From NCBI GenBank assembly GCA_013044175.1, contig JABEUY010000012.1, forward strand, positions 1-40,956: a stretch of DNA of 40,956 nucleotides, in the 5' to 3' direction. Positions 7,511 to 9,800 of this stretch are shown one piece after another. The notes beneath the pieces are model-generated. The model saw only the letters and a list, made by a program, of their open reading frames with translations, made no database searches and was not told the DNA's origin. The stretch comes from Bacilli bacterium (GTDB lineage: Bacteria; Bacillota; Bacilli; Alicyclobacillales; SLC66). Each line of letters opens with the position of its first letter. The first letter of the stretch is position 1. The position numbers were made by a program, and so were the translations under genes.

Positions 7511-7696
7511 TTATAAAACGAGAAAACCGATAATCGTATTCGAGACGCCCCATGCTACCCATGTTGCTGTAATCCGTTTTTTTGCTTCTTCATTTTCTTG
7601 CGCCATGATATGAAGATTGATCAACGTCAAAAAAAGCAGAAAGATAACCAACTTTGCACTTAAATGTGCCTGCGTATCCTGCTGATTTCGTTTCAT
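7511..7696 (-). CDS. Small membrane protein, unknown
   Basis: A 61-residue reading frame converging on thiE. It has a charged start (MKRNQQDTQ), a hydrophobic segment at about residues 14-31 (AKLVIFLLFLTLINLHIMA), a polar charged stretch, then a second hydrophobic segment (VAWGVSNTIIGFLVL) at the end. Codon choice and hydrophobicity look real, but the ribosome site (GGAAGAG about ten bases before the ATG) is weak and I recognise no family. The opposite strand also has a frame from 7392 that overlaps the thiE stop as ATGA, which I think is the shadow. Confidence 0.45.
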   Translation of the reverse strand: MKRNQQDTQAHLSAKLVIFLLFLTLINLHIMAQENEEAKKRITATWVAWGVSNTIIGFLVL

Positions 7697-7900: not shown

Positions 7901-8179
7901 ATGAATATGAATCGAAAAATCGAACAAGAACGTAAACAACAGCGATTGAAAAATCAATTGGGTAAGATTTCTTTCGCGATTGCACTCGCTTCCGTCTTTG
8001 GTTTTCTCGGCAATTTTGAATTGATGCACCATACGGTCACGTCGCCAAGCACTACGACTTCTTCGGTAACACCAACTACGACAACCACCAATGCTTTTTC
8101 CAACTTCGATTCATCAGGAGGAAGTGTCAGTATCAATAGCAATGCATCCGGGCTCAATGGCTTTTCGGGGGCATCCTAA
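7901..8179 (+). CDS. Small membrane-anchored Ser/Thr-rich protein, candidate flavin acceptor
   Basis: A 92-residue protein with a strongly basic N-terminus (residues 1-22), one hydrophobic segment (about 24-42, ISFAIALASVFGFLGNFELM), then a Thr/Ser-rich low-complexity tail. The positive-inside rule puts the tail outside the cell. The last residues are GLNGFSGAS; SGAS resembles the SGAT core of the D-x-x-S-G-A-T/S motif that ApbE flavinylates, although the acidic residue and anything after the motif are missing. Start ATG has GAGG seven bases upstream. The stop is two bases before the ApbE start, so the genes are translationally linked. Homology to a named family is not recognised. Confidence 0.7.
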   Translation: MNMNRKIEQERKQQRLKNQLGKISFAIALASVFGFLGNFELMHHTVTSPSTTTSSVTPTTTTTNAFSNFDSSGGSVSINSNASGLNGFSGAS

Positions 8180-8181
8180 TC

Positions 8182-9123
8182 ATGTATACCGAGAAATTTA
8201 CTGCGATGGGAACAACCATAACGATCAGTATCGCTACACAATCTCTGAATAAACTGGACGTCGACGCGATTCTTTCGATGGTAAAACGACAAATTGAGCT
8301 GTACGAAGCGATTTTTTCCCGATTTCGAGAGGACAGCGAGCTTAACCGTATCAACCAACATCCAGGAACATGGCAATCCGTATCGTCTTCGCTTGGTCAA
8401 GTGTTACGCCTCGCCAAAGAAGCGCATGCGTTTACCGGTGGCCTATTTAATCCTTGTATGGGATTAACCATGCAAGCGATCGGCTACGATCAATCCTTCG
8501 AACATCTCACTTTCACCAAAGAAGATGATGATCACAATACGAGGCATTCGATTAGGCGTAAAGTATTAGAACCTCAATACGACGGTGAAAATCGCTATCT
8601 ACTAGCCAGTGATGACCGCAGAGTTTATTTATTTCATGATTACCAAATCGATCTCGGAGGTATTGCAAAAGGATTTATCGTGGAGCAAGTCGCAAAACAA
8701 CTTCAACAACAAGGGTTACACCACTTTGTCATCAACGCTGGTGGCGATATGGTTTGCCAAGGTCTAGCCGATGGACAACCCTGGCAGATCGGAATCTCAG
8801 ATCCACAGGCACCGAACCAGTCCATCCTTACGCTAAACGTCGATTCGCATTGTGTTGCAACGAGCGGCTCTTACCGTCGAACATGGTCCCATCAAGGACA
8901 AACGGTGCATCATCTCATTGATCCAAAAAACGGTACATCTTCAACATCTGATATCGTCTCTTGCACAGTGATCGCAACTTCTTTAGTACAAGCTGAAGTT
9001 TTTGCCAAAAACGGCTTATTACTCGGCTCACATCGTGCACCATCTTGGCTAGCGCAACAAAAAATCGCTGGCTGGGTTCTGATTAACCAACAAGGGGAAG
9101 TGAATCATTCGTGGATAAATTAG
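8182..9123 (+). CDS. apbE: FAD:protein FMN transferase (ApbE)
   Basis: A 313-residue ApbE protein that moves FMN from FAD onto a Thr or Ser of a target protein. Signatures are AMGTTITISI at the N-terminus, EAIFSRFREDSELNRIN, GLFNPCMG, the flavin and metal site YQIDLGGIAKGF, FVINAGGDM, VATSGSYRR and HHLIDPKNG. There is no signal peptide or lipobox, unlike many exported Gram-positive ApbE proteins, so it may act inside the cell or its export is not obvious. It is sandwiched between the small SGAS-ending peptide and a cytochrome b with which it overlaps by 13 bases, pointing to one operon. Confidence 0.93.
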   Translation: MYTEKFTAMGTTITISIATQSLNKLDVDAILSMVKRQIELYEAIFSRFREDSELNRINQHPGTWQSVSSSLGQVLRLAKEAHAFTGGLFNPCMGLTMQAIGYDQSFEHLTFTKEDDDHNTRHSIRRKVLEPQYDGENRYLLASDDRRVYLFHDYQIDLGGIAKGFIVEQVAKQLQQQGLHHFVINAGGDMVCQGLADGQPWQIGISDPQAPNQSILTLNVDSHCVATSGSYRRTWSHQGQTVHHLIDPKNGTSSTSDIVSCTVIATSLVQAEVFAKNGLLLGSHRAPSWLAQQKIAGWVLINQQGEVNHSWIN

Positions 9124-9779
9124 AAGAAAATCAACGAAGCGCGTTACTGTTTACGGTTGTGTTTACCGTCATCATTCTTGTCGCCTCCGTCTGGATCACC
9201 CGTGTCATTTCTCCTTCAGTAACACAAGCTAACATGATGTATTGGCTGATCGATCGTTCGGCCGGTCTAATCAGTTATGAACTATTATCGTTAAGCATGA
9301 TTCTCGGTCTATCGATGAGCAGTGGACTTTGGGATCGCTTCGGTCGCCGAAACTTTGCCAAGCAACTTCACCATTTCAGCACGTTGCTAATCCTACCGTT
9401 TCTCGCCCTTCATCTCATCGGTCTACTTGGTGACGCGTCCATTCCTTTCACCATCGCGAACCTTCTGATTCCCGGTTCGGCAACGTACCAACCTTTCTTA
9501 ACCGCACTTGGCTCACTTTCTTTGTATGCGGTGATCGCCCTGATCGCATCGACGTATCTTCGTCAACGCATCGGGCAAAAAACGTGGCGAACGCTGCATT
9601 TCCTCGCCTTTCCGACGTTTCTTTTTGTGACGATTCATGGCTTATGGCTCGGCACGGATAGTCATTCTCTGATCGGGATTTTGCTTTATGTCGTCCCTCT
9701 TGCGATCATCGCTGGTCTTGTTATGGAGAGGATCGATCGCGCGAAAAGCAAACAAAAAGCCAAGACGACAGCTGCTTAA
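9111..9779 (+). CDS. Ferric reductase-like transmembrane cytochrome b
   Basis: A 222-residue integral membrane protein with about six hydrophobic segments. Two histidine pairs have the spacing of the ferric reductase/NOX heme domain: HFSTLLILPFLALH and HFLAFPTFLFVTIH, each H-x12-H, in neighbouring helices, which would hold two b hemes across the membrane. There is no FAD or NAD(P)H domain, so electrons must come from or go to a partner, plausibly a flavinylated protein. Start is GTG at 9111 inside the end of apbE, with AGGGGAAG about ten bases before. It could also be called a YedZ/MsrQ-like heme subunit, but no molybdenum partner gene is nearby. Confidence 0.82.
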   Translation: MDKLEENQRSALLFTVVFTVIILVASVWITRVISPSVTQANMMYWLIDRSAGLISYELLSLSMILGLSMSSGLWDRFGRRNFAKQLHHFSTLLILPFLALHLIGLLGDASIPFTIANLLIPGSATYQPFLTALGSLSLYAVIALIASTYLRQRIGQKTWRTLHFLAFPTFLFVTIHGLWLGTDSHSLIGILLYVVPLAIIAGLVMERIDRAKSKQKAKTTAA

Positions 9780-9800
9780 TCGCTGTGGTCTTGGCTTTTT
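9754..9800. terminator. Bidirectional terminator
   Basis: AAAAAGCCAAGAC (9754-9766) pairs with GTCTTGGCTTTTT (9788-9800), with an inner CAGC/GCTG pair. It overlaps the end of the cytochrome gene and serves the converging TauE gene. Confidence 0.9.

Follow-up and report, generated by a model that had tools for sequence, protein, structure and literature searches.

A run of three co-oriented genes on the forward strand, at positions 7901-9779 of the window (the whole 40,956-nucleotide stretch of DNA that was analysed), likely encodes a minimal flavin electron relay, in which FMN would be carried on the domain-free tail of a small membrane-anchored protein. Covalent FMN, the direction of electron flow, the donor and the acceptor are inferred. 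Shown are the gene order, the family membership of the proteins, the conserved heme ligands, a conserved C-terminus and a distinct clade of ApbE enzymes, together with the absence of known ApbE substrates, as far as these were searched for, from several genomes that have only the window-type ApbE system.

The first gene (7901..8179, +) encodes a tail protein of 92 aa that ends in LNGFSGAS and belongs to no Pfam family. It is followed after a 2-base gap by apbE (8182..9123, +; 313 aa), a member of the FAD:protein FMN transferase family that falls into a leaderless, Lys-type clade, and then, with a 13-base overlap, by the gene of a ferric-reductase/MsrQ-like membrane cytochrome (9111..9779, +; GTG start; 222 aa), an assignment supported by four invariant His residues, an AlphaFold model and PDB folds. 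A strong terminator-like hairpin (9754..9800, +; -28.4 kcal/mol, z -7.3) lies over the cytochrome stop codon with a U-run directly 3' of it, and the three genes therefore probably end one transcript; a simple terminator scan missed this hairpin because of its 9-base loop. The trio is flanked upstream by thiD/thiE-like genes and downstream by a TauE/SafE gene on the opposite strand. A 61-aa ORF with a hydrophobic stretch (7511-7696, -) is found just upstream of the tail gene. The original prediction, made without database searches, had given the stretch 7901-9779, the gap and the overlap, all of which held exactly. Its description of a one-pass membrane peptide with a Ser/Thr-rich tail, an SGAS end and no FMN-binding domain also held (no Pfam match), as did the identity of the ApbE (PF02424, 1.3e-62) and of a ferric-reductase-like heme b cytochrome without a flavin domain.

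The window tail protein consists of a positively charged N-terminus, one transmembrane helix (approximately residues 19-40) and a Ser/Thr-rich linker. It terminates in N-G-F-S-G-A-S-COOH (codons at 8156..8176, +), a natural end resembling a flavinylation tag, in which Ser92 is predicted from sequence to be the acceptor and carrier of FMN. The published ApbE site motif is D-x-x-[ST]-G-A-[ST] (PMC12052999); its [ST]GA[ST] part is present in the window tail as SGAS, while the Asp six residues ahead of the acceptor is absent and Asn86 is found there. Comparison of the peptide with Pfam gave no match, thus no hidden FMN_bind domain was detected. Direct sequence searches with the peptide revealed weak matches only, since conservation is limited to the anchor and the last residues, and the gene neighbourhood was needed to find its relatives. 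Cytochrome homologues in the order were gathered, and the reading frame preceding apbE or the cytochrome gene was inspected; tail candidates were picked by position, not by their ending. Loci with no such upstream gene in the retrieved stretch (L057, L062, L080, L081, L085, L086, L088) or at contig edges (L065, L089, L105) were left out of the count, some of the excluded loci being distant cytochromes.

Across 39 genomes and 18 genera of the order, [ST]-x-[AG]-S stands at or near the end of all 45 position-matched peptides, as the exact C-terminus in 38/45 and at most 4 residues inside in 7/45. Their linkers are unalignable and mostly Ser, Gly and Thr; the tail proteins of some relatives contain a PG_binding_1 domain and others a charged Gln/Lys-rich spacer. 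Among the 38 exact tails, Ser is invariant at -1 and Ser or Thr is found at -4, position -2 is Ala in 31 and Gly in 7, Ser and Gly predominate at -3, and Asp occupies -7 in 13. Strictly canonical [ST]GA[ST] ends account for 8/45 tails, the remainder being [ST]x[AG]S. That the motif is looser than the canonical site, with Ser most often at -3 and Gly possible at -2, counts as evidence against our reading. The family-mates L077, L078 and L079 of the window genome show the gene order tail protein, cytochrome, ApbE, and their tails have a charged Gln/Lys-rich spacer and no Ser/Thr linker, yet end in TGAS/TSAS. Gene order is also altered in G039 and G015 (tail between cytochrome and ApbE, or tail, cytochrome, ApbE), and G029 has an extra pair of tail protein and cytochrome without ApbE.

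The SGAS end might be a chance feature of a low-complexity Ser/Thr/Gly linker. The linkers are indeed rich in S, T, G and A, and 2.1% of linker positions match [ST]x[AG]S. Against this, 27/33 distinct tails matched the motif, compared with 0.56 expected when each protein's own last 50 residues were shuffled, and the maximum in 20,000 simulations was 5 matches. The tail motif was found in 0/115 cytochrome, ApbE, FMN_bind and RnfD ORFs. Shuffling and conservation thus rule out a chance end, with hardly any room left for it.

The window ApbE matches PF02424 over the whole domain (residues 9-293), and alignments, including ApbE relatives in the PDB, showed that it retains S228, the His of HHLIDP, DLGGIAKG and NAGGD. 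It has E272 and K276 where other ApbEs have the Mg ligands Asp and Thr. In the T. pallidum enzyme, Asp284 and Thr288 are ligands of the second Mg2+ (PMC5655446); the equivalence to these residues was inferred through V. cholerae, T. maritima and family alignments, and both ligands are absent in the window ApbE. Its membership at the level of the fold stands, but canonical chemistry is not assured, and FMN transferase activity is inferred from sequence.

An alignment of the family revealed E/K in all cassette ApbEs of the order and D/T in the ApbEs beside FMN_bind; across the Lys clade the first ligand position is Glu, or keeps Asp, and the second is Lys. Among 181 ApbEs surveyed in several phyla, the Lys was found in 108. 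Of these, 97/108 adjoin a cytochrome of the window family and 0/108 an FMN_bind gene, compared with 16/73 non-Lys ApbEs beside FMN_bind; the FMN_bind profile was built from members of the order and may have overlooked distant FMN_bind proteins. On a tree calculated without the Mg-site columns, the Lys label needs 4 changes as compared with 53 in shuffles, and the cytochrome-linked ApbEs group together with a support of 88-89 (FastTree, local support only). Gammaproteobacterial Lys cases lie elsewhere on this tree, and a few Thr cases lie inside the clade. A hydrophobic leader, judged by a simple hydropathy rule, is lacking in 105/108 Lys-type ApbEs and present in 49/71 of the Thr-type. The cassette ApbEs are thus a distinct clade without a signal peptide, with Lys for the Mg-ligand Thr, located beside a cytochrome and never beside FMN_bind.

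The gammaproteobacterial Lys ApbEs L152, L165 and L176 have a hydrophobic leader and neither cytochrome nor tail nearby, and their Lys is likely of separate origin. Five cytochrome-linked Thr ApbEs in or beside the clade (L120, L125, L128, L263, L266) still adjoin tail-like proteins. The idea that Lys tracks exact C-terminal ends only was not supported, as Lys is also found with motifs lying 2-4 residues inside (L082, L083, L084, L087, L090).

The changed Mg site (D to E, T to K) speaks against our reading in so far as ApbE activity cannot be assumed. A Lys-type ApbE might transfer a group other than FMN, or be an FAD-binding partner or pyrophosphatase without transferase activity, and the tail would then be a partner and not a flavin carrier. 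In favour of this, Glu (or a kept Asp) and Lys occupy the positions of the two second-Mg2+ ligands. However, all remaining core motifs are retained, the tails end in the residue class that ApbE modifies, and Lys could substitute for the cation electrostatically. We consider this explanation very unlikely.

The same trio recurs outside the order, in Paenibacillus, Brevibacillus, Cohnella, Neobacillus and Niallia as well as in Chloroflexota, on a Streptomyces plasmid and on a Psychrobacter plasmid. These were detected by scanning genome contigs with an ApbE alignment; an earlier scan with the cytochrome gave nothing. Here the tail loosens to [ST]-x-x-[ST]-COOH (Bacillota, Chloroflexota, Actinomycetota and the Psychrobacter plasmid), with ends such as RTHAS, RTRAS, RSRHS, RTRRS, RSGGS, RTSGS and RTRSSQ. 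The Bacillaceae-like genomes, with Arg, His or Ser at -2, depart further from the canonical motif and likewise count against our reading. When one-pass proteins were picked by position only, [ST]xx[ST] ends were found in 58/88 picks beside a Lys-type ApbE and cytochrome versus 2/39 beside other ApbEs, and [ST]x[AG]S ends in 43/88 versus 0/39. Several of the non-matching picks are evident errors of the automatic rule, for example at L099, where the true tail protein was identified separately. Charge is higher before than after the helix in 74/88 picks beside a Lys-type ApbE and cytochrome, which fits the expectation for an outside C-terminus.

Some of these loci carry additional genes. On the Psychrobacter plasmid (L265, 1963-5528), a PepSY protein, a tail ending in RTRSSQ, a Lys-type ApbE, the cytochrome and a VIT-family gene lie in a row with a sensor kinase upstream, and the cluster raises the possibility of an iron-related role of the system in a Gram-negative. 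A gene for a Haem_bd (PF14376) protein is located between ApbE and cytochrome in a Chloroflexota locus (L130, 2331-2846). The Streptomyces plasmid (L264, 3640-6468) encodes a tail ending in TRSGGS, a Lys-type ApbE and a cytochrome with fused NAD-binding and 2Fe-2S domains.

A further search addressed other ApbE targets. Contig C126 of the window genome (L001, 506-2953) encodes an FMN_bind protein (motif TGATLS), a leaderless T-type ApbE 29% identical to the window ApbE, and an NQR2/RnfD-like protein. This second trio recurs in other genomes of the order, and the FMN_bind genes adjoin their own T-type ApbE. Thirteen other genomes of the order have PF02424 loci only next to a cytochrome of the window family; twelve of them have a single ApbE locus and one (G046) has two. 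FMN_bind, NQR2/RnfD and DUF2271 are absent from these thirteen genomes, although the assemblies are partly draft and DUF3570, Flavodoxin_4 and FMN_red were outside the search. The tail is therefore the only ApbE substrate candidate seen there.

These genomes bear on the alternative that the conserved tail end acts as a signal by which the cytochrome or the ApbE docks or is assembled, and that ApbE modifies another protein or the cytochrome. For this it can be said that the window genome does encode an FMN_bind protein, that Bacillaceae-like genomes have variable residues at -2 and -3 of the end motif, and that there are no covalent FMN data for the tail. On the other side, the FMN_bind genes of the order have the second, T-type ApbE next to them, and the thirteen genomes without other ApbE loci also lack every known target tested. 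Moreover, the cytochrome alignments contain no conserved [ST]xx[ST] on an exposed tail, and exact [ST]GA[ST] ends (8/45 strict) are the textbook ApbE site. A docking signal is thus unlikely, and we favour the tail as flavin acceptor.

Alignment of the window cytochrome with 20 diverse homologues showed four invariant His residues, H87-x13-H101 and H163-x12-H176. The window cytochrome itself remained below threshold in Pfam and displays no flavin or NAD(P)H domain; five of nine close homologues matched PF01794 (Ferric_reduct). The AlphaFold model is a confident helical bundle (pLDDT 92), and the top Foldseek matches were SpNOX (8qq7), STEAP2 (7tai) and STEAP1 (6y9b), with probabilities of 0.95-1.00 and weak E-values (0.14 or worse). 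Because of these poor E-values, the fold assignment rests on the top-ranked NOX/STEAP matches together with the His spacing and PF01794. The two H-x12-H pairs originally proposed were partly confirmed, as H88, which would yield the second x12 spacing, is not conserved.

The remaining claims of the original prediction concerned the tail. The lack of the usual acidic residue held for the window, which has Asn in place of Asp, although Asp is frequent in relatives (13/38). Conservation of a terminal SGA[ST] in the small neighbours of ApbE/cytochrome pairs had been proposed as a check and was passed far beyond close relatives. Two observations had been named as refuting: loss of the SGAS end in orthologues was not seen, the motif being however [ST]-x-[AG]-S and looser than strict SGAS; another ApbE target in the genome was partly met, as the canonical FMN_bind protein exists but adjoins a second, different ApbE. 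The proposal that the tail is an unusually small flavin acceptor is supported by comparison, with covalent FMN unproved; that it links the cytochrome to an outside electron acceptor likewise remains unproved.

In the mechanism that we propose, ApbE would move FMN from FAD onto the Ser at the C-terminus of the small anchored peptide. The cytochrome would draw electrons, in the window most likely from menaquinol, move them over two b hemes to the outward-facing side of the membrane, and reduce the FMN held on the flexible tail. The flavinylated tail would then swing off and hand its electrons to an acceptor in the cell wall or the medium, for which Fe(III) is plausible. The lack of an NAD(P)H domain in the window cytochrome is the basis for inferring a quinol donor, while the fusion in Streptomyces likely indicates an NAD(P)H donor there. 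The tail is expected to lie outside because of the positive-inside charge and the PG_binding_1 domain of some relatives, and a leaderless ApbE paired with an outside tail counts against our reading. As the ApbE has no signal peptide, we infer that FMN is probably attached to the tail on the cytosolic side, ahead of the tail's passage across the membrane; both this order of events and export of ApbE by an unidentified route are possible, and the leaderless ApbE next to the exported FMN_bind protein of the same genome poses the same topological puzzle. The C-terminal Ser is a plausible acceptor, inferred from conservation and the precedent of an engineered tag, without biochemical evidence. Fe(III) is a reasonable guess and no more, based on the PepSY/VIT-family genes adjoining the Psychrobacter cluster and on published MsrQ-like clusters with VIT1, which suggest iron reduction (PMC8238504).

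A bolder reading, towards which the balance tips only slightly, is that domain-free flavoproteins are natural and widespread in at least four phyla, as disordered membrane- or wall-anchored proteins with FMN on a C-terminal Ser, which serve heme b reductases and are modified by a dedicated cytosolic Lys-type ApbE that recognises the free C-terminus; the Lys may read the terminal carboxylate or stand in for Mg2+. If true, no protein fold is required for a flavin redox centre, extra electron-transfer chains exist in many soil bacteria, acid-tolerant bacteria and Chloroflexota, and natural enzyme-tag pairs become available for protein labelling. The literature that was searched contained no link of flavinylation and ApbE to Alicyclobacillus or to a C-terminal serine. 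Meheust et al. (PMC8238504) described some apbE genomes without a recognisable substrate and rarer substrates still to be found. The trio would have been missed twice over, as a domain-free tail is invisible to domain searches and criteria that demand a signal peptide discard a leaderless ApbE.

The closest described systems are the MsrQ-like flavinylation clusters (Meheust et al. 2021, PMC8238504; Huang et al. 2024, PMC11334425), in which apbE likewise lies beside a six-helix, two-heme PF01794-type membrane protein that should supply electrons to an ApbE-flavinylated partner outside the cytosol. These clusters typically contain a folded FMN_bind (PF04205) acceptor and were collected only where ApbE or a known target had a predicted signal peptide or lipidation site. 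The trio meets the first feature, a PF01794-type two-heme protein beside apbE, but has no folded known acceptor in the cluster (no Pfam match for the peptide; 0/108 Lys loci with FMN_bind) and does not meet the signal-peptide criterion (105/108 Lys-type ApbEs leaderless), the tail protein having an N-terminal transmembrane anchor. With its leaderless ApbE and a domain-free C-terminal tail as putative acceptor, it is therefore called a variant and not a member. The NOX/STEAP reductases of bacteria and animals share the helical bundle of the FRD superfamily and two conserved His pairs, but their FAD/NADPH domain is missing from the window cytochrome. The C126 trio also brings apbE together with an exported acceptor and a membrane protein for electron transfer, but has a T-type ApbE, a folded FMN_bind with an internal TGAT, an NQR2/RnfD-type partner and no cytochrome. 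FMN_red with a C-terminal extension (PMC11334425) similarly carries the ApbE motif on an unstructured C-terminal extension, which sits on a folded flavin-binding domain that the tail protein does not have. In the Flavin-tag (Tong et al. 2021, per PMC12052999), seven residues ending in the flavinylated residue suffice, work best at the terminus, and tolerate a D to A change with minor effect only (PMC12052999). Tag and trio tails share a short D-x-x-[ST]-G-A-[ST]-type terminus ending in the acceptor residue, a predicted one in the trio; the tag is man-made, whereas the natural tails nearly always finish in Ser, accept S, R or H at position -3 and are paired with an ApbE clade of their own. By analogy, and with covalent FMN not shown, the trio tail looks like a natural counterpart of the engineered ApbE tag.
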